From assembly GCF_016863435.1 (NCBI RefSeq), contig NZ_BOOW01000043.1:1-64000 (forward strand): a stretch of DNA of 64,000 bases. Direction: 5' to 3'. The notes beneath the pieces are model-generated. The model was not told the DNA's origin. It made no database searches and saw only the letters and a list, made by a program, of their open reading frames with translations. The translations under genes were made by a program, and so were the position numbers. Below, piece after piece: positions 51,233 to 59,143 of this stretch. This DNA comes from Sinosporangium siamense. GTDB taxonomy: Bacteria > Actinomycetota > Actinomycetes > Streptosporangiales > Streptosporangiaceae. The first letter of the stretch is position 1. Each line of letters opens with the position of its first letter.

Positions 51233-51940
51233 TCAGATCGCCGCAGTGCCGACGTTGCGCCGGCGCATCCGGACGAGGCCGTAACCCGCGGCGGCGGCGA
51301 GGCCGAGACCCAGGTAGAGGCCGGCTCCGGAGGCGAGCGGGATCACCGGGCTGGCGTCCGGCGGACCACACTGGGCCTGGCTGACGATGATGTCGGTCCC
51401 GGGCACGATCGTGGTGATGTGGACGGCGTTGACGGTCAGACTGCCGTTCGCGTTGGGGATCTGCTGGTTGAAGACGACGGTCAGCACCGGAAGGCCCGCT
51501 GGAATGTTGAACGTGGTGTTGGCAGCGGGGTTGGACCCGACCGAGATACCCGGGATGTTGACGTTGGCCAGCGTGGTCGAACCCGTGTTGCCGGCGGCGC
51601 TGGCGTTGCAGGTTGCCTCGGCCGCGCCGATGGCGAGGGCGATCCCCGCCACGGTGGCGCCGAATCCGGCCGTCTGCGCGGTCGCCGACTCGGTGCCGGC
51701 CGCGGGGGTCTGGGTCACCGACACGGTGACGACCCCTGTGGTCACCGGTGGAATGTTGACGCTCGCGACAGACGCGTGGGGATTGTTGACGTTGGCCAGC
51801 GGAGTTCCTGGCGACCCTCCGACGGATATGCCATACGCGTGAAGCGTCGTGTTGTTCTTGGCCGCCTCACTGGACGTAACCGCCGTCAACAAACTCAATC
51901 CGGTCATCGCGGCGACCGCGAGCCCCCGCTTGATAGACAC
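51233..51940 (-). CDS. Secreted choice-of-anchor-P-like surface protein
   Basis: 235 residues. A signal peptide (about 1-26, ending SSEAA) is followed by a beta-rich, Ala/Asn/Thr-rich domain (LHAYGISVGG, TTLANVNIPGISVG, VFNQQIPNANGSLTVNAVHI) of the type found in choice-of-anchor P proteins. The C-terminus has a sorting-signal layout: PVIPLASG, then a hydrophobic helix (GLYLGLGLAAAAGYGLV), then RMRRR. It has no LPXTG motif, so it is a candidate substrate for the exosortase-family enzyme 4 kb away. GTG 51940 chosen with AGGGGG upstream. A palindrome lies 94 bp before the start. Confidence 0.72.
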   Translation of the reverse strand: MSIKRGLAVAAMTGLSLLTAVTSSEAAKNNTTLHAYGISVGGSPGTPLANVNNPHASVASVNIPPVTTGVVTVSVTQTPAAGTESATAQTAGFGATVAGIALAIGAAEATCNASAAGNTGSTTLANVNIPGISVGSNPAANTTFNIPAGLPVLTVVFNQQIPNANGSLTVNAVHITTIVPGTDIIVSQAQCGPPDASPVIPLASGAGLYLGLGLAAAAGYGLVRMRRRNVGTAAI

Positions 51941-52033
51941 CGTCAAGCACCCCCTGCTTACTTTCCATCTCAATGACGCCTGGCGCCACACTAAGAAGAC
52001 CTGACCAGCAGAAACGCCATTCGAGCCGCAGGT

Positions 52034-52049
52034 TCACTCCATAGGGTGA
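52034..52049. promoter_or_regulatory. Locus palindrome, copy A
   Basis: TCACTCCATAGGGTGA, two mismatches per arm from perfect symmetry. It lies 94 bp before the start of the choice-of-anchor-P-like gene on the minus strand. Confidence 0.65.
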
Positions 52050-52186
52050 GTGAATGGAGTTAAACCACCCTGGCCGGAAAACACCGATATTTGCCTTTTA
52101 GGCGTGACTAAGGATGGCGTTTAACGGACGCAGCGCGTGTTCCCCACCGCCGCTTCACGCCGATGAGGTGAGTCAAGGGGGGTTAA

Positions 52187-52202
52187 TCACCCCAGGGGGT
52201 GA
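52187..52202. promoter_or_regulatory. Locus palindrome, copy B
   Basis: TCACCCCAGGGGGTGA: seven-base arms are perfect around AG. Ends 78 bp before the ATG of the atypical response regulator. It is the exact reverse complement of copy C. Confidence 0.78.
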
Positions 52203-52280
52203 GTGTGTCGCGGAACCTCACGGTTGCGCACGACTACATTGATCATCGAATTGCTCGCCCACGAGCCGGAAAGGGGGGTC

Positions 52281-52982
52281 ATGGCCGAGAACTCACTCGG
52301 TTCCGGAACGTCTACCGCTGATGTGCGGAACGCGGAATGCCGGATCGTCATCGTCGACGAGGCCAAGCTGATTCACCTGGCTCTGCGGGTGGTGTTCACC
52401 CGCACTCCGAGGTTCTCCCTCGTCGGGTCCGCGTCGGCGGTGCCCGAGGCGCGCAGCATCATCCTGCAACTGAAGCCCGACATCCTGCTGTGCGAGGTCG
52501 ACATCGCCGGCAACAACGGGCTGGAACTCTGCGACTGGACCCGCTCGGCGAGTCCGCGCACGTCACCCGTCATCCTCACCTCCCGCGACGACCCGCTGCT
52601 CGCGCGGTCCGCGCTCGACTCGGGCGCCCTCGGCTATCTGCTCAAGACGTCACCGCCGGAAGACCTCGTCTTCCACCTGCAAAGTGTGCGGGCGGGGCGA
52701 AGGGTGCTGGACGACAGGATCGGGCGTTGCCGTACCACCTCCTGGGAGAACCACCAGAACCGCTTCGGGCTCAGCCCCCGCGAGTGTGAGGTGCTGGAGG
52801 AGGTCGTGCTGGGGCTGGACAATCGCACCATCGCCGGACGGTTGTGCATCGCCCACGACACCGTGAAGAGCCACATCAAGGCGATCCTCCGCAAAATCGG
52901 CGCCCGGGACCGCGCACACGCCATCGCCCTGGTGCTCAGCGCGCGGCCCAGCGAGGTGCCCGGTCCCCGGCGCCCGCAATAA
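52281..52982 (+). CDS. Atypical NarL/LuxR-type response regulator (phospho-Asp replaced by Glu)
   Basis: 233 residues. A receiver domain (about 20-140) is followed by a LuxR helix-turn-helix (about 165-225, LSPRECEVLEEVVLGLDNRTIAGRLCIAHDTVKSHIK). The receiver keeps the acidic pair (VDEAKL), the Thr (ILTSRDD) and the Lys (YLLKTSP). At the phosphorylation site it reads LLCEVDIAG, with Glu72 where Asp is expected. Glu often mimics phosphorylation, so it may be constitutively active or respond to another cue. No histidine kinase gene is adjacent. The palindrome copy upstream suggests autoregulation. ATG 52281 directly follows AAGGGGGG. Confidence 0.85.
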   Translation: MAENSLGSGTSTADVRNAECRIVIVDEAKLIHLALRVVFTRTPRFSLVGSASAVPEARSIILQLKPDILLCEVDIAGNNGLELCDWTRSASPRTSPVILTSRDDPLLARSALDSGALGYLLKTSPPEDLVFHLQSVRAGRRVLDDRIGRCRTTSWENHQNRFGLSPRECEVLEEVVLGLDNRTIAGRLCIAHDTVKSHIKAILRKIGARDRAHAIALVLSARPSEVPGPRRPQ

Positions 52983-53067
52983 CACCTCTCCCCGGGGTTG
53001 AGGGGTCCTGTCCCGGCCGGACCCGCCGCAACCCGCGACCCCATATGCGCCGGGGGTGGGAGTGCTC

Positions 53068-54201
53068 ATGCGGAAACAGGTGGTCGCGGTCGTCATCGGC
53101 ACGCGACCTGAGGCGATCAAACTGGGACCGGTCATCGCCGGCCTGACCGGCAGCGGATGGGCTGAGGCGTTCGTCGTCACCACCGGGCAGCATGGACGGG
53201 TCGTGGATGACATGCTCGCGTTGTACGGCACGGCGCCGGCCTGCCGCCTGCCGCTCGACCGGCGTGGCGAGGACCTCGCCCAACTCGCGTCCGCGCTGGT
53301 CGCGAGGCTCGGCGACACCTTCGTGCGTGCCGCGCCCGACCTGGTGGTGGTGCAGGGCGACACCACGTCGGCGTTGGCGGGGGCGCTGGTGGGGCACCTG
53401 CTACAGGTGCCGGTGGCCCATGTCGAGGCGGGGTTGCGCAGCTACGAGCCGCTGCCGTTCCCCGAAGAGATCAACCGCAGGCTCATCGGCCCGCTCGCGG
53501 ACCTGCATCTGGCCCCCACGCCCGCCGCCCGCGACAACCTGCGTTCCGAGCGTGTCGCCGGCGCGCGCATCGTGGTGACCGGCAACACGGTGATCGACGC
53601 CCTCGCCCACGTGGCGGGGCTCGCGGGCGGCACACCGGGGGAACGCCCGCTGGTGCTGGTCACCGCGCACCGCAGGGAGTCGTGGGGCGAGCCCATGCAC
53701 CGGATCGCGCGGGTGGTGCGCCACCTCGGGGCGCTCTATCCCACGGTGGACTTCTTTGTCGCGACCCACATGAACCCCGCGGTGCGGTCGGTCTTCGAGA
53801 CGGAGATCTCCGGGCTGGACAACGTGGTGTGCGCGGGACCGCTGGGTTATCGGGAGTTCGTGGAGAAGCTGATCCACTGCGAACTGGTGATCACCGACTC
53901 CGGCGGCGTCCAGGAGGAGGCCGCCTCCCTCGCACTGCCCGCGCTGGTCATGCGGGAGCAGACCGAGCGTATGGAGGGCCTGATGGCCGGGCTGGCGCAC
54001 CTCGTGGGCACCGACGAGGAGCTGATCGTCAAGACCGCGGCCGGCTTTCTGGACCACGCCGGGCCGCCGCGTCGCCGTACGGCACGGGCCTGCGCATATG
54101 GGGACGGAAAAGCGGCCGAGCGCACCGTGCGAGCCTGCGGCTGGCTGCTGGGACTGGACGAGCGGCCGTCCGATTTTTCCTTCTCTCACCCCCTGGGGTG
54201 A
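53068..54201 (+). CDS. wecB: Non-hydrolysing UDP-N-acetylglucosamine 2-epimerase
   Basis: 377 residues. Interconverts UDP-GlcNAc and UDP-ManNAc for surface glycan synthesis. Diagnostic motifs: GTRPEAIKLGPVI, TGQHGRVVDDML, VQGDTTSALAG, HVEAGLRSYEPLPFPEEINR, TGNTVIDAL and ITDSGGVQEEA. ATG 53068 with GGGAG upstream is preferred to a GTG twelve bases earlier. It follows the atypical regulator by 85 bp. Its last codons and stop overlap palindrome copy C. In this locus it probably supplies ManNAc-type sugar for the glycosyltransferases. Confidence 0.93.
   Translation: MRKQVVAVVIGTRPEAIKLGPVIAGLTGSGWAEAFVVTTGQHGRVVDDMLALYGTAPACRLPLDRRGEDLAQLASALVARLGDTFVRAAPDLVVVQGDTTSALAGALVGHLLQVPVAHVEAGLRSYEPLPFPEEINRRLIGPLADLHLAPTPAARDNLRSERVAGARIVVTGNTVIDALAHVAGLAGGTPGERPLVLVTAHRRESWGEPMHRIARVVRHLGALYPTVDFFVATHMNPAVRSVFETEISGLDNVVCAGPLGYREFVEKLIHCELVITDSGGVQEEAASLALPALVMREQTERMEGLMAGLAHLVGTDEELIVKTAAGFLDHAGPPRRRTARACAYGDGKAAERTVRACGWLLGLDERPSDFSFSHPLG
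54186..54201. promoter_or_regulatory. Locus palindrome, copy C
   Basis: TCACCCCCTGGGGTGA, identical to copy B on the other strand. It covers the last codons and the stop of wecB and ends 79 bp before the ATG of the LPFTG protein gene. Confidence 0.78.
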
Positions 54202-54280
54202 TGTCACGTGCGTCGCCGGACCGGTGGAGAAACGCCGTGTGACGGTGGATGCGAGCTCAATTTGACTATGTGAGGTGCGA

Positions 54281-54523
54281 ATGTACGGCCATGGAGAAGG
54301 TGGTGGCATCGCCGCCGGTGCTGCCGGAGCCGCCGGCCTCATCAGCGAGAGGGTGGATAAGAAGGTCGTCGCCGTCACCGATGGAGGGACAAACGTCGGA
54401 ACCTGGGGTGCCGAACTTCCCTTCACCGGATTTCCGGTGATGTTCAGCATGGCGCTTAGCGTCGCACTCATCCTGGGTGGCCTACTGATCATCCGGAGCG
54501 TGAGGCTACGACGGGCCTCCTGA
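54281..54523 (+). CDS. 80-residue LPXTG-tailed small protein
   Basis: Gly/Ala-rich N-terminus (MYGHGEGGGIAAGAAGAAGL), short hydrophilic middle, then a complete sorting signal: LPFTG at 46-50, hydrophobic helix 52-72 and RLRR at 75-78. No N-terminal signal peptide is visible, and an in-frame stop 18 bases upstream excludes a longer form, so insertion would rely on the C-terminal helix. GAGGTG precedes the ATG. Its own palindrome copy lies 79 bp upstream and a strong terminator follows, so it is an independent transcription unit. Confidence 0.72.
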   Translation: MYGHGEGGGIAAGAAGAAGLISERVDKKVVAVTDGGTNVGTWGAELPFTGFPVMFSMALSVALILGGLLIIRSVRLRRAS

Positions 54524-54543
54524 GGAAGGTTCTCTCAGCAAGG

Positions 54544-54584
54544 CAAGGGGAAGGCCCGGACAGCCGGTCCGGGCCTTCCCCTTG
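54544..54584. terminator. Strong bidirectional hairpin terminator
   Basis: Perfect 18-base arms (54544-54561 and 54567-54584) with a five-base loop, followed by TTG. It lies between the convergent LPFTG and glycosyltransferase genes. Confidence 0.92.
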
Positions 54585-54599
54585 TTGTGCGGCGTATGG

Positions 54600-55979
54600 T
54601 CATCTCTCATGGGCCACGGGCCGCCCCCGGGTGTGCACCTCGCTGTTGCGGCGGGTCTTGGCCCAGCCGTCCCTGCGGCGTATCACGCGGATGAAGGCGC
54701 GCCAGGAGGTGATGTAGAAGTTGTAGATATAGAGCGCGTATGCCACGCCGTAGGCCAGGCTGCGCCAGAAGCCGACACCGGGTTCACACTTCCACCAATA
54801 GATCGGCCCCCACACGAGGAACGGCAGGATGCCGAAGGACGCGTAGATCGCGAAGAGGATCCAGCCTCCTTCCGCGAGCCACCCGGCCATGCCGACGGGG
54901 TCGTTCGCGACTCTGACGCACAACAGCAGCAGCGGAATCGGATAGATCAGGGTGCCGAGGAGCTGCAACCACGGTTGCGCCAGGTAGTAGAGCACCTCAA
55001 GCGCCCCGAGGCCGCTGAAGTGCCGCGACCTCCACACGTCCTGGAGATACTTCGCGCACTGCATGGTGCCCTGTCCCCAGCGGGTGCGCTGGGTGATGAG
55101 ACGGCGCAGGGACCAGAGCCCCTCCTGCTCGACCCAGGTGTCGGGGGTGTACTCGTTGCGTTCGCCCGCCAGCAGCAGTTGGATGCCGAGTTCGAAGTCC
55201 TCCAGCAGGGAGCCGCCCCACGGCATGCGCCCCTCGCCGGCGATCTTGTCGAGGGCTGAGAGCCGGGAGAGCTGGCCGTTGCCCCCCATCGCCACCGTGC
55301 CGCTCTTGCGGCGGCTGAGCTGGATCGCGGAGATGGCCCCGCGGAACTCCAGGTCCTGCATTTTGATCAGCGTGCGGCCGAAGAGGTTGCGCAGCCGTCC
55401 GCCGTTCAGACTGGGACGCCGATCGTGCCGGTTGATCATCCACACGTCGATCTGCACGGCGCCGATGGTCTCGTCGCCGAACAACCGGGGCCCTGCGCAG
55501 ACGCGCAACATGTTGGCCGCGGGCCGCCCGTCCGCGTCGAGCACGCACACGATGTGCCGGCGGCGGTCCGCATCGGGGCCGAGCCAGTCGTCGAGCATAC
55601 GGTAGGCGGCGTTCAGCGCCTCACCTTTGCCGACCCTGGCCTCGGGGCGCTTCCGCTGTACCAGATGCACGAAGGAGTCGCGGCCGGCCAGCTCGTCCAC
55701 GATGCGAGCGGTGCCGTCGTCGGAGTCGTCGTCCACGACCCACAGGTGCGCGGCCGGGAAGGTGGCGCGCAGATAGCGCACCGTGCCGCCGATGACCGCC
55801 TCCTCGTCGCGGCAGGGGATGAACAGGTGCCAGTTGTATTGATCGGCGTCGCCCACCGGGTCGGGCTGCTGTTTGAGGTATGGGCGCAGGATGGTCATGA
55901 CGTAGACCAGGAAGGTGACACTGAGGAACAGCGCGAACGCCTGCGTCAGCCCCAGAATGTAGCCGAGTCCCCCCATCAT
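54600..55979 (-). CDS. Processive membrane glycosyltransferase, family 2
   Basis: 459 residues. One N-terminal helix (about 8-33) precedes the GT-A catalytic domain: WVVDDDSDDGT (UDP-binding Asp), VLDADGRPA (DxD), LLEDFELGIQL (acceptor Glu-Asp) and QRTRWGQGT (the Q-x-x-R-W motif of processive enzymes such as cellulose and hyaluronan synthases). Four or five C-terminal helices follow (about 320-440), which could form a translocation channel. Its ATG overlaps the stop of the exosortase gene by four bases (ATGA). A polysaccharide or glycan product tied to the anchoring system is inferred. Confidence 0.88.
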   Translation of the reverse strand: MMGGLGYILGLTQAFALFLSVTFLVYVMTILRPYLKQQPDPVGDADQYNWHLFIPCRDEEAVIGGTVRYLRATFPAAHLWVVDDDSDDGTARIVDELAGRDSFVHLVQRKRPEARVGKGEALNAAYRMLDDWLGPDADRRRHIVCVLDADGRPAANMLRVCAGPRLFGDETIGAVQIDVWMINRHDRRPSLNGGRLRNLFGRTLIKMQDLEFRGAISAIQLSRRKSGTVAMGGNGQLSRLSALDKIAGEGRMPWGGSLLEDFELGIQLLLAGERNEYTPDTWVEQEGLWSLRRLITQRTRWGQGTMQCAKYLQDVWRSRHFSGLGALEVLYYLAQPWLQLLGTLIYPIPLLLLCVRVANDPVGMAGWLAEGGWILFAIYASFGILPFLVWGPIYWWKCEPGVGFWRSLAYGVAYALYIYNFYITSWRAFIRVIRRRDGWAKTRRNSEVHTRGRPVAHER

Positions 55980-56608
55980 GGCGCGTTCACCGCCTGACGT
56001 TCGGCGGTGCGGGCGTCGTTCCTGCGGATGGCGAGCAGCACGTAGGCGACGAGCGCCGTGCCGATGCCGATCACACTGATCACCGAGCCGACCATGGTGT
56101 GGCCCCAGTAGTAGCCGGGGTCGAAGCCGAAGCCCTTGATGAGGAGAACGCAGGTCAGAATGCGCACCTGGTTGGTCGTGGCGAGCAGGAGGATCGCGGC
56201 CAGCAGCGCCAGCATCGGCCAGAGCGTTACCTTGCGCCGGAGCCACACCAGCAGGGCGGTCACGATGATCAGCGGCACGACGAGGAACGCCGAGGTGCAC
56301 TCCGGTGTGATCATCAACCCGCCGGCGTTGGCGGTGCCTTCGTCGTAGGAGACGACGGCGCGGGTCAGGCTGTAGTCGCTCTTGGTGCGCGCGCCGAGGG
56401 CGACGACGTGGCTGGCGAGATAGGCCTCCCAGCCGCGCAGGCGGTCGTCCACGCCGAGGGCGAAGCCGAGGAGCGCGGCGAGTACGAGGGTGAGCGTGAC
56501 GCGGTACGGCAGGCCGCTCCTGGCCGTGCCTGGTGGATCACCATTGCGTGGGGTTGTTCGCAGGGTGCCGCCACCGATCGTCGCATCGCTCCGGGCCTGA
56601 TTGATCAT
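55976..56608 (-). CDS. Exosortase/archaeosortase family transpeptidase
   Basis: 210-residue membrane protein with about five helices. The invariant triad is visible: Cys104 (TPECTSAFLV), Arg149 (TTNQVRI) and His170 (YYWGHTMVGS). These are the hallmarks of the exosortase/archaeosortase family, which cleave C-terminal sorting signals and transfer proteins to a surface molecule. Actinobacterial members are sparsely characterised. Start ATG 56608 with GGGGG upstream. It forms a two-gene unit with the glycosyltransferase and shares a divergent region, with one palindrome copy 95 bp upstream, with the lipoprotein gene. Confidence 0.87.
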   Translation of the reverse strand: MINQARSDATIGGGTLRTTPRNGDPPGTARSGLPYRVTLTLVLAALLGFALGVDDRLRGWEAYLASHVVALGARTKSDYSLTRAVVSYDEGTANAGGLMITPECTSAFLVVPLIIVTALLVWLRRKVTLWPMLALLAAILLLATTNQVRILTCVLLIKGFGFDPGYYWGHTMVGSVISVIGIGTALVAYVLLAIRRNDARTAERQAVNAP

Positions 56609-56702
56609 GCATCCCCCAACACATAAGGCCACCGATGACTACGCAAAGTAGCCGTTCCGAGTGGAGCGGTCAGGGACGGACACGCGCCCCCGACACGGCC
56701 TC

Positions 56703-56718
56703 TCACCCCCTGGAGTGA
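56703..56718. promoter_or_regulatory. Locus palindrome, copy D
   Basis: TCACCCCCTGGAGTGA, one base different from copy C. It is 95 bp before the exosortase start (minus strand) and 77 bp before the lipoprotein start (plus strand), so it may control both. Confidence 0.76.
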
Positions 56719-56795
56719 GGGGCCGCGTGGGCAGGGTGGGGACACGCCGACCGGGGATTAACGTTCGGCCTCGTCGTCTACGAGGAGGGGTCGGC

Positions 56796-57614
56796 GTGTC
56801 ACGACACTGGAAGGTCACAGCCGTGCTCGCGGGTGTCGCGTTGACGGGAACCTCATGCACTCCGGCCGGCCGGGCGGTGCCGTACACCGAGCCCTATATC
56901 CAGGGGCTTGAGGTGCGGCAGGCCGGTGTGGTGACGAGTGCGGCGCTCGGGATCGGGACATGTCACCGCATGGAGCTGCCGGAGGAGCTCTACAACGGCA
57001 GCGACGTCGCGCCACCCGTGCCCTGCACCGAACCCCATCAGACCGAGACCTACATGGTCACGGTGTTCACCGGTGCCTTGGCCGCCCATCGGGAGCGGCC
57101 CAACCCCGAGCAGCTCGTCGCGGCGATCGACAAAGCCTGCAGCTATCAGCCGATCCGCCCCTACCTCGGCGCGGGCACGCACGACGGGCAGTGGGGGGTG
57201 GCCATCTGGGGAAAGTTCCCGACTCGTGCTGACTGGGCGAAGGGTGACCGTACTCTCCGGTGCGATCTGCTCGGGCCGACCACCGCGGCCGAGAGGGGGC
57301 CCGAGTTGCGTGTTCCCCTGCGCAACATCATGAGGCGCCGCGAGTCTGCCGTCGTACGGCGCTGCCGCCTCGGCGCCCGCGACGTCACCTGCGCCGAGCC
57401 GCACCACGCGGAGTGGGTGGAACCGCCCGCCCCCTTCGACCCGCGCCCCGACGTGCAGCAGGACATGTGCCGGCAGAACGCCCGCGCCTTCCGGCAGGGG
57501 AGCTTGTCGGGACTGACCGTGTCGGCGGAGGCGATGGACGGCTATGTCGCCTGCTGGCTGAGCCACAAGGACGGACGGATGAGCGTCGGCACCCTGCGCG
57601 GAGGACTCACGTGA
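56796..57614 (+). CDS. Septum-formation-family lipoprotein
   Basis: 272 residues. The GTG start behind GAGGAGGGG opens a signal sequence (VSRHWKVTAVLAGVALTGTSC) whose Cys is probably lipidated, although the lipobox GTSC is imperfect. Six or more further Cys residues occur in a regular pattern (GTCHRMELP, PVPCTEPHQTETYMV, KACSYQ, DVTCAEPHHAEWVEP, DMCRQNARAF), with two repeats of a C-x-x-PH-x-E/T-type unit. That pattern is typical of the actinobacterial Septum_form domain. Function unproven; probably an extracytoplasmic wall-associated protein. Overlaps the next gene. Confidence 0.75.
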   Translation: MSRHWKVTAVLAGVALTGTSCTPAGRAVPYTEPYIQGLEVRQAGVVTSAALGIGTCHRMELPEELYNGSDVAPPVPCTEPHQTETYMVTVFTGALAAHRERPNPEQLVAAIDKACSYQPIRPYLGAGTHDGQWGVAIWGKFPTRADWAKGDRTLRCDLLGPTTAAERGPELRVPLRNIMRRRESAVVRRCRLGARDVTCAEPHHAEWVEPPAPFDPRPDVQQDMCRQNARAFRQGSLSGLTVSAEAMDGYVACWLSHKDGRMSVGTLRGGLT

Positions 57615-59143
57615 TGGCAGCACATTCCCGCCGCGCGTTGTACGGCACAGCCGCGGCGACCGGCGTCGCCTGGATCGGCGTCATGCTGGCCCGCCTGTTC
57701 GCGGGCGGTGCGATCGGCCTGGCGGAGCAGGGTGACGGCAAGCGTCTGCTGTGCACGTTCGGGGTGGCCAACGCGCGGCCGTGGAACGCCGACATGTGGC
57801 GCCATATCTATACGACGTGGGTGCCGCACACCTGGTACGGCGAGACCTGCGGAGCCGACGGCTCCGGCGAGGTGTACCACTCCACCCAGATCTGGATTCT
57901 CTGGCTGGCGAAGCTCATTCACGGCCCGCTCGGCCTGCCTGGCGCGCTCGACACCCGGGCCGTGGGTGTGGTCGGCGCCGTGTTTGTCGGGGTGTTGTGC
58001 GGGTTGTTCGTGCTGGTGCTGCCGGGGGCACTCCGGTTGCGGGTCCTCATGTCCAGTGCCTTCGGGCTGGTCTACGCGGATTCGGCGTTCGCCGGATATT
58101 TCATCTCGCCGTTCGCGGAGCCTGCGGCGCTGCTCGGGCTCGGCGCGCTGGTGTTCGCACTACTTCTCCTGTGGAGGAAGGGGCGGGCCACCTGGCCCAG
58201 GCTTCTGCTGGTGCTCGCGTGCGCTCTATTCACGATCGCGGCCAAGATCCAGCTCGCGTCGTTCGTGATCCCGGTGGCGATCGCGGTGGTGTGGCTGCCG
58301 CATCGCGGGTCGGCGCGGTGGTGGCCGCGCCGGGGTGTGGTCGTCAGGGCGGTGACCCGGCGGGCGCCCGCGCTGCTCGTCAGCCTGGCCCTGGCGGGCT
58401 CGACCGGCTACTACCTGCTTCAGCAGCCCAAGCGGCAGACGGAGGTGGCGATCTACGACGTGGTGTTCGGCTCGATCCTGCACGACAACCCCTCGGCCGT
58501 CGCGGACCTGCGCGATCTCGGCCTCCCCCCGCACCTCGCCAAGGCGGCCGACACCAACATCATCAGTGCGAACTCCATCGCCCGCACTCCGGACTACCCG
58601 CACTTCCACAAGGTGGTCACCCCCGCCACGATCGCCTACTTCTACCTCGCCCACCCGGCCCACGCGCTGCGCGTCTTCGGGTGGGGGCTTGAGGGCATCG
58701 CGGAGATGGAGACCCACTATCTCGGCTCCTATCCGCCCGACTCCGGTCAGCCGCCCGGTGCGCGGGAGCAGCGTGTCCGGGTCTACGGGTTTCTGTGGGG
58801 GGTGTTCAGGTTCGCTCCGGGTCTGCTGGTGGTCCTGTGGGTCCTGCTGTTCTGCCTGGGGCTGCTGGTCGTACGGCGGCGCACGCTCACCATGGCCGAG
58901 TCGGCGATCGGGCGGCTGGCGGTGATCACCCCGATCATGATCATCACGCAGATGGGGGTCGTGCTGCTCGGGGAGGGCCGGATCGAGGCCACCCGGCACC
59001 AGACCTACGTGACCTTCCTGACGGCGCTCGCCATTCCGCTCGCGGCGCTCTGCGTGAGGTATCTCGTCATCCGGATGCGTCCGGTTTCGCGCCAGGAGCG
59101 GGCACCCGGTTTCGACAGGCACCCCACGCTGACGTCGCGTTAA
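57614..59143 (+). CDS. WsfD-like multi-pass membrane glycosyltransferase
   Basis: 509 residues with about ten membrane helices. The N-terminal half has a large loop between helices 1 and 2 (FGVANARPWNADMWRHIYTT, CGADGSGEVYHSTQIW). It resembles GT-C enzymes and specifically the WsfD-type hexose transferases of glycan biosynthesis. Such enzymes use lipid-linked sugars on the outer membrane face. The ATG at 57614 overlaps the preceding stop (GTGATG), with GTG 57611 as an alternative. Coupled to the septum-formation-like lipoprotein gene. Confidence 0.75.
   Translation: MAAHSRRALYGTAAATGVAWIGVMLARLFAGGAIGLAEQGDGKRLLCTFGVANARPWNADMWRHIYTTWVPHTWYGETCGADGSGEVYHSTQIWILWLAKLIHGPLGLPGALDTRAVGVVGAVFVGVLCGLFVLVLPGALRLRVLMSSAFGLVYADSAFAGYFISPFAEPAALLGLGALVFALLLLWRKGRATWPRLLLVLACALFTIAAKIQLASFVIPVAIAVVWLPHRGSARWWPRRGVVVRAVTRRAPALLVSLALAGSTGYYLLQQPKRQTEVAIYDVVFGSILHDNPSAVADLRDLGLPPHLAKAADTNIISANSIARTPDYPHFHKVVTPATIAYFYLAHPAHALRVFGWGLEGIAEMETHYLGSYPPDSGQPPGAREQRVRVYGFLWGVFRFAPGLLVVLWVLLFCLGLLVVRRRTLTMAESAIGRLAVITPIMIITQMGVVLLGEGRIEATRHQTYVTFLTALAIPLAALCVRYLVIRMRPVSRQERAPGFDRHPTLTSR

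Follow-up and report, generated by a model that had tools for sequence, protein, structure and literature searches.

An orphan NarL/FixJ-type regulator and BldM-like palindromes proposed to control an exosortase-P-like gene cluster in Sinosporangium siamense

An inverted repeat laid out as 7-2-7 follows the NarL-type arrangement, and at the ogt promoter of Escherichia coli two such sites in tandem, at -44.5 and -77.5, serve NarL in activating transcription (according to the available part of PMC7419079). In Streptomyces venezuelae the Group I operator of BldM, TCACcCgnncGgGTGA, was footprinted with purified BldM, which, like the regulator proposed here, is an atypical orphan of the NarL/FixJ family believed to work without phosphorylation (available part of PMC4125116). 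A literature search found no work on the XrtP/CoaP system or its regulator, a search by the operator letters gave nothing specific, and the regulation of actinobacterial exosortase-like systems was absent from the literature found. For one such cluster we propose here an operator with its regulator, the promoters under its control and their geometry.

The window, meaning the whole stretch of 64,000 nucleotides of S. siamense DNA that was analysed, carries a cluster that, judged by its protein families, appears to be an exosortase-P-like system anchoring proteins to the cell surface. On the minus strand lies the gene for CoaP (51233-51940), a choice-of-anchor P protein (NF040603, 74.3 bits, cut-off 27) with a CoaP C-terminal sorting domain (NF053845, 43.9 bits, cut-off 35). 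It is followed on the plus strand by the regulator (52281-52982), a UDP-GlcNAc 2-epimerase of the wecB type (53056-54201; TIGR00236, 323 bits, cut-off 210) and a small LPFTG protein of 80 aa (54281-54523; NF058583, 17.8 bits, under the cut-off of 65). An XrtP-associated glycosyltransferase (54600-55979; NF053846, 695 bits, cut-off 520) and an exosortase-P-like protein (55976-56608) are encoded on the minus strand, and a Septum_form-domain gene (56796-57614; PF13845, 52.9 bits), labelled lipoprotein-like when the DNA was first read, and a WsfD-family glycan hexose transferase (57614-59143; NF051875, 338 bits, cut-off 80) on the plus strand. The genes proposed to be controlled belong to the same families as the NCBIfam set of XrtP, CoaP and XrtP-associated glycosyltransferase, with the reservation that the exosortase scores 117 bits with NF012139, under the cut-off of 200, a model that exceeds its cut-off in 0 of 150 family genomes.

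Four 16-bp palindromes had been claimed for this DNA in an earlier note, and all four are present, none with an assigned strand. Operator A (TCACTCCATAGGGTGA, 52034-52049) is proximal to CoaP, and its reverse complement is the S. album site at L057:12825; operator B (TCACCCCAGGGGGTGA, 52187-52202) is proximal to the regulator. The LPFTG gene is preceded by operator C (TCACCCCCTGGGGTGA, 54186-54201), whose final TGA is also the epimerase stop codon; operator D (TCACCCCCTGGAGTGA, 56703-56718) separates the XrtP-like and Septum_form genes, which diverge from it. Their architecture is a 7-2-7 inverted heptamer, TCACYCY-NN-RGRGTGA; MacR is another 7-2-7 case. The exact pattern TCACYCCNNRGRGTGA gave 7 strand matches at 4 places in the window (dinucleotide-shuffle mean 0.01, n=100), a count that was equalled in 0 of 100 window shuffles. 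When the window was scanned with the looser TCACCCCNNNGGGTGA at up to 3 mismatches, the 34 matches were not above chance (37.2), so only the exact class of matches is informative. The scan pattern of the earlier note, TCACYCCNNNGGRGTGA, is 17 bp long, one base too many, and occurs at 0 places in the genome. The note had also overlooked a degenerate 17-bp site, operator A' (TCACGCCGATGAGGTGA, 52155-52171, likewise strandless), which ends 15 bp before operator B. Six of six relatives with two sites have the same 15-bp gap, their second site being exactly 31 bp away, and operator A' would be what remains of such a conserved pair once 122 bp had been inserted or duplicated. The operator had been described as not recognised from known systems, but it resembles the BldM Group I type: it is a 16-bp palindrome with the TCAC/GTGA arms and 7-2-7 layout of that site, from which most half-sites depart at positions 7 and 10 (available part of PMC4125116).

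The regulator consists of a receiver (PF00072, 53.3 bits) and a LuxR/GerE helix-turn-helix (PF00196, 59.4 bits), and its best PDB match is NarL (1a04). A Glu aligns with the phosphoacceptor Asp of NarL, while the receiver Lys is retained; a degenerate pocket lacking this Lys marks WhiI. Glu is found at this position in 12 of 13 aligned orthologs (the 14th, G149, lies outside the alignment), the remaining one, L066, having Asp there and Thr in place of the receiver Lys. This makes it an atypical regulator, like some other members, that still belongs to the NarL/FixJ family. That a Glu at the phosphoacceptor might make a regulator constitutively active has been discussed (available part of PMC12632262). 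Because Glu replaces the phospho-Asp and no kinase gene was seen beside the regulator gene, the regulator is probably active once made. MadR was considered as a better-known relative and rejected; for two next-best regulators NF047785 is the top-scoring model, yet under its cut-off, and the literature on MadR yielded nothing of use.

The reading that we consider probable is that the palindromes are operators bound by the cluster's own regulator, which would activate its own gene and switch the cluster on. Regulator orthologs were found at 14 loci from 341 family genomes, and a site with at most one mismatch lies upstream of the regulator, in the regulator/CoaP position, in all 14; these come from few genera, seven being Herbidospora, and the shuffle statistics ignore kinship, so that the 14 do not count as independent tests. 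Around next-best NarL-type regulators, used as control loci, a site anywhere in about 3.6 kb was found in 1 of 26 (L145, near its regulator). At the same threshold the LPFTG side has a site in 6 of 14 loci, including none of the seven Herbidospora, and the XrtP/Septum side in 3 of 12 XrtP-bearing loci. Each Herbidospora locus has one site, with none ahead of LPFTG or XrtP, and the XrtP/Septum-side site is also absent from L065 and L066. The earlier note held that absence at orthologous loci would speak against an operator; conservation is complete for the regulator/CoaP site and mixed for the others. On this distribution, the core target would be the regulator with CoaP, the LPFTG and XrtP sites would be lineage-limited, and XrtP itself would be a target in only 3 of the 12 XrtP-bearing loci. 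An XrtP match at E <= 1e-20 was obtained in 10 of 150 family genomes, all 10 with the regulator. The regulator occurs with a pair of sites in two further genomes (G027 and G149) that gave no XrtP match; the site thus tracks the regulator and not the exosortase.

The spacing of sites to start codons had been put at 77-79 bp for plus-strand genes, which is correct (78 bp for the regulator, 79 for LPFTG and 77 for the Septum_form gene), and at 94-95 bp for minus-strand genes, where the gaps are 93 bp (CoaP, GTG at 51940) and 94 bp (XrtP-like, ATG at 56608). This constancy had been offered as an argument for function. However, the regulator gap ranges from 57 to 121 bp across 12 loci, the start in relatives being taken as the first plausible start codon, and start-codon spacing was rejected as a conserved quantity; the distance to a putative -10 is conserved instead. 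These putative -10s are pattern matches. In the regulator promoter of the window, TACATT (52235-52240, plus strand) lies 32 bp past operator B, and TANATT was found 32-34 bp past the site in all 14 loci (shuffle mean 0.01 loci), each time as its sole occurrence in the 110 bp past the site. On the CoaP side, TAGTGT (51988-51993, minus strand) lies 40 bp past operator A, and TANNNT was found 39-41 bp past the site in 12 of 14 loci, not in L057 and L066 (shuffle mean 0.36, largest 3), with additional TANNNT at other offsets in some loci. The putative -10 of the Septum_form gene, TAACGT (56759-56764, plus strand), is 40 bp past operator D, and the distances in the three loci with this site are 40, 40 and 39 bp. 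The distance on the XrtP side is not constant (TACTTT at 56645-56650, minus strand, 52 bp past operator D; 52, 42 and 34 bp in three loci), and on the LPFTG side TANNNT occurs within 80 bp of the site in 0 of 6 loci. A promoter scan found no sigma-70 pair, a weak absence given a shuffle mean of only 0.5.

With the sites upstream of putative -10s at 32-34 and 39-41 bp, the placement is that of an activator. A regulator that represses the cluster and itself until a ligand or partner removes it is an unlikely alternative. Autorepression is common, and the conserved orphan receiver could offer a binding site for a ligand or partner. However, the palindromes stop short of the core promoter, 32-34 or mostly 39-41 bp before the putative -10s, and 7-2-7 sites serve activation both by NarL at ogt and by homodimers of BldM (available parts of PMC7419079 and PMC4125116).

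The likeness of the operator to that of BldM raises another explanation, namely that BldM of the host (or BldM-WhiI) binds the sites and the cluster belongs to a general sporulation regulon. Positions 7 and 10 account for most of the difference between the motif and the BldM Group I consensus: where that consensus has g, 57 of 62 half-sites here have C or T at position 7, a frequency that is biased because the 31 sites behind it were selected by pattern match. The regulator itself does not appear to be a BldM ortholog. The two proteins share 29% identity over 222 aa and 46% over 54 aligned residues of the DNA-binding domain, and they fall in separate clades with 100/100 support each in a tree built without six Herbidospora orthologs (near-copies) and without L152, L203 and L211 (DNA-binding domain unrecognised). 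The BldM query, identified by synteny in S. chumphonensis, has a 100% identical protein in G057 and orthologs of 57-72% in 12 further genomes (13 of 19 class genomes from other families). Searched with the same query, 37 family genomes (S. siamense among them) and 4 order genomes gave no protein above 47% identity among the best 40-53 candidates per genome, and the S. siamense genome gave no match at E <= 1e-35 among its best 40-53 candidates. The gene bldM stands in a whiD-bldM-sigD-guaB neighbourhood, which is present in L183; the regulator described here has the XrtP-like cluster around it instead. The groEL-to-guaB interval of the S. siamense genome has no regulator gene, and the sigma factor ORF within it is presumably sigD. 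The sequence TCACCCGNNCGGGTGA has 0 occurrences in this genome, and WhiI is reported as absent from Streptosporangium in the available part of PMC4255298. On the candidates scored, control by BldM is very unlikely and largely refuted, and because the host appears to be without BldM, the cluster's own regulator most likely reads the palindrome.

The 8.86-Mb genome of S. siamense has 5 exact places, 4 of them inside the cluster; together with the site kept at every ortholog locus, this supports the earlier proposal of a functional operator with a small regulon. Another 22 places have one mismatch; gene neighbourhoods were read for two of them (C42:118264 and C56:36062), and three on C29 and C43:87881 were compared only with the cluster's proteins. 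Many occurrences elsewhere had been named as evidence against such a regulon, and in the family this partly applies: 85 of 150 genomes carry an exact match at one place or more, while XrtP was found in 10. Other regulators therefore probably use similar palindromes. The same motif adjoins another NarL-type regulator of this genome at C22:41056 (L001), and a separate site lies near other NarL-type regulators in 5 of 5 Herbidospora genomes examined; these would suit a different NarL-type regulator that reads the sites and has the cluster regulator as one target. However, the sites co-occur with the cluster regulator at each of its 14 loci, and among 296 genomes sampled at class level no ortholog of that regulator was found beyond the family, which makes this explanation highly improbable. 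That the palindromes are RNA hairpins, terminators or dispersed repeats, as perfect or near-perfect inverted repeats may be, was rejected and has next to no probability, since full pairing leaves a 2-base loop, the terminator scan has no entry at the sites, there is one exact genome match outside the cluster, and the sites keep their place relative to genes and putative -10s across several genera.

In the preferred reading, that of an auto-activating cluster regulator, a dimer would bind the 7-2-7 BldM-like palindromes and recruit RNA polymerase to its own promoter and that of CoaP; the S. siamense lineage would add the LPFTG, XrtP/glycosyltransferase and Septum_form/WsfD genes as targets. The Glu-bearing regulator would act independently of phosphorylation, and the cluster may be switched on by synthesis of the regulator, through positive autoregulation, or by a ligand or partner. 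Binding, activation, phosphorylation independence and the trigger are what we infer from this arrangement. A wider and more tentative suggestion, possible though not favoured, is that a BldM-lacking branch of the Streptosporangiaceae took over or kept the BldM-type operator code with an always-active pseudo-receiver regulator, whose paired, helically phased sites would drive its own gene and an exosortase-type surface-anchoring cluster. Such an on-switch would sustain itself and would have outlived the exosortase in some genomes. One operator type would then apparently be read by two separate regulator clades, a natural case in which one clade has a phosphomimetic-like receiver; how such receivers are controlled is an open question in the available part of PMC12632262.

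Compared with known systems, the cluster differs from BldM in that the targets proposed here sit in one cluster and not in a developmental network. Like NarL at ogt, it has 7-2-7 sites in tandem upstream of the promoter, with about three turns of the helix between them, whereas the centres are 33 bp apart at ogt and 31 bp here, NarL responds to nitrate via phosphorylation, and its heptamer sequence is unlike the operators here (available part of PMC7419079). The PrsK/PrsR system and the sigma-54 motif of PEP-CTERM genes, found by phylogenetic profile, likewise tie the genes of an exosortase sorting system to a response regulator and to a cis motif that they share (available part of PMC1569441). 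That system, however, is proteobacterial, NtrC-type and sigma-54 dependent, usually with the kinase in tandem, while the regulator described here is NarL-type, with only receiver and GerE domains in Pfam and so not PrsR-like.

The four 16-bp palindromes that an earlier note had placed at 52034 (A, CoaP-proximal), 52187 (B, regulator-proximal), 54186 (C, ahead of the LPFTG gene) and 56703 (D, between the XrtP-like and Septum_form genes) were confirmed on the sequence. The strict form TCACYCCNNRGRGTGA occurs at 4 places with 7 strand matches in the window, against a mean of 0.01 and none at 7 in 100 shuffles. In the complete assembly (8,855,038 bases, 84 contigs) it was found exactly at five places, the window's four and position 41056 of contig C22, with 22 more places at one mismatch. 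The scan pattern suggested in the earlier note had one N too many and returned 0 places in this genome. When positions 7-10 were relaxed (TCACYCNNNNGRGTGA) eight places were obtained, the new ones being C36:119628, which is within an ORF, C42:118264 and C56:36062. The fifth exact site, C22:41056 (L001:1501-1516 of the fetched locus), follows the stop of another NarL-type regulator by 27 bp and sits where an ORF begins; read by eye, this ORF is a candidate beta-lactamase-type serine hydrolase. The similar site at C42:118264 (L176:4265) adjoins a truncated HTH ORF resembling that NarL-type regulator, and the two sites possibly belong to a separate regulator family with the same operator.

Searches with NCBIfam and Pfam identified in the cluster the choice-of-anchor P protein CoaP (51233-51940, minus strand), sorting domain included, and an epimerase of the wecB type. 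The XrtP-associated glycosyltransferase scored 695 bits; the XrtP-like protein stayed at 117 bits, short of the 200 that its family requires. Further matches were a Septum_form protein, a WsfD-family transferase and the regulator (52281-52982, plus strand), which has a receiver-GerE architecture. The small protein downstream of the epimerase carries LPFTG in its sequence. CoaP_CTERM was found at a single place in this genome, the cluster itself, with 150 of 320 candidates scored.

A profile scan of the genomes' contigs with the glycosyltransferase alignment gave 12 related loci, in Sinosporangium album, Rhizohabitans, seven Herbidospora, Acrocarpospora phusangensis, Streptosporangiaceae NEAU-GS5 and the distant Streptomyces chumphonensis, and these were scanned for the symmetric form TCACYCYNNRGRGTGA. 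A site with at most one mismatch is present upstream of the regulator in 11/11 Streptosporangiaceae loci, and CoaP adjoins in 10/11; the S. chumphonensis locus had no regulator match and no TCACYCYNNRGRGTGA site. The regulator profile, applied to the top 8 candidates of each genome, matched 14 genomes out of 341 in the family at E <= 3e-104 (next match 3e-52). In a class-level sample of 296 genomes no ortholog was found outside the family (best 9e-48). All 14 regulator loci have the upstream site, whereas only 1 of 26 control loci (about 3.6 kb around next-best NarL-type regulators) has a site anywhere. Two regulator-bearing genomes, G027 and G149, keep a pair of sites with no XrtP match at E <= 1e-20. 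The LPFTG-side site occurs in 6/14 regulator loci and the XrtP/Septum-side site in 3/12 XrtP-bearing loci; thus regulator and CoaP form the conserved core, the rest of the regulon being restricted to particular lineages. The 150 family genomes scanned for exact matches include 12 with the regulator; these 12 have 39 exact places, of which 18 fall in the cluster by manual count. Of all 150 genomes, 85 contain one or more exact matches.

Loci L109 and L164, whose genomes fall in the genus group of A. phusangensis, retain the regulator, sites, Septum_form and WsfD genes; the XrtP gene and the XrtP-type glycosyltransferase gene were not found in them, and CoaP is only a weak remnant in L109. The fetched S. 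album locus (L057:7887-12840) had no CoaP, Septum_form or WsfD match; a chitinase gene faces its XrtP-side operator, and its epimerase match is limited to a 3' remnant adjoining the LPFTG-side operator. A second site, TCACTCTCYGGAGTGA (L104:4413, L105:4619, L106:4409, L107:4499, L108:4582), is common to all five Herbidospora genomes examined. It immediately precedes a 697-aa ORF, and a NarL-type two-component system lies about 0.8 kb away (ORFs listed for 2/5).

The 62 half-sites of 31 sites from the cluster loci read T62 C59 A61 C59 [C30/T32] C62 [C38/T19/G4/A1], with arm frequencies biased upward by selection of the sites by pattern. Exactly 31 bp separate the sites in all six two-site relatives; the intact sites A and B of the window are 153 bp apart. 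Because a degenerate copy sits 15 bp ahead of the second intact site, we infer that an insertion or duplication of 122 bp spread the window pair apart. The last TGA of operator C (54199-54201) is the epimerase stop codon, as in L058, L065 and L164 (4 of the 6 loci with an LPFTG-side site).

On the regulator side, TANATT, a putative -10, follows the site by 32-34 bp in 14/14 loci, and the 110 bp after each site contain no other copy; shuffles, which ignore kinship of the loci, gave a mean of 0.01 loci and at most 1. On the CoaP side, 12/14 loci have TANNNT 39-41 bp after the site (mean 0.36, largest 3 in shuffles that likewise ignore kinship), the exceptions being L066 and L057, where no CoaP match adjoins the site. 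TANNNT lies at 39-40 bp on the Septum side (3/3 loci) and at 52, 42 and 34 bp on the XrtP side (3 loci), and is absent within 80 bp on the LPFTG side in 6/6 loci. No sigma-70 pair was detected in a promoter scan, against an expectation of 0.5. With the -10 at its usual place, the centre of the regulator-side site would fall near -53. In the receiver, Glu replaces the phospho-Asp in 12/13 aligned orthologs, a change that may confer constitutive activity according to one review, which gives examples on both sides (PMC12632262). The regulator is most likely a phosphorylation-independent activator that would switch on its own gene (positive autoregulation).

Accounts of NarL-type regulators describe binding to two inverted 7-base elements with a 2-bp gap (PMC7419079), and BldM, an orphan atypical Streptomyces regulator, is described as binding TCACcCgnncGgGTGA as a homodimer (PMC4125116). 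The window motif resembles this operator in arms and spacing, with a different base at positions 7/10 in most half-sites. The regulator is not BldM itself, as the two form separate clades in a tree (7 and 14 rows, each 100/100; the regulator stem is long and carries a long-branch warning). In the DNA-binding domain it shares 46% identity with BldM and 46-61% with the next-best regulators. With a query located by synteny in S. chumphonensis and 40-53 candidates per genome scored, BldM orthologs (57-100% identity) were found in 13 of 19 other-family genomes of the class, and nothing above 47% in 37 genomes of the family and 4 of the order. An atypical orphan NarL-type regulator with a 7-2-7 operator is a kind already known; within the openly licensed papers searched, the regulon is new. 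Its closest analogue in role is PrsK/PrsR of the proteobacterial PEP-CTERM systems (PMC1569441), in which one PEP-CTERM gene has been demonstrated to depend on sigma-54 (PMC9850573).
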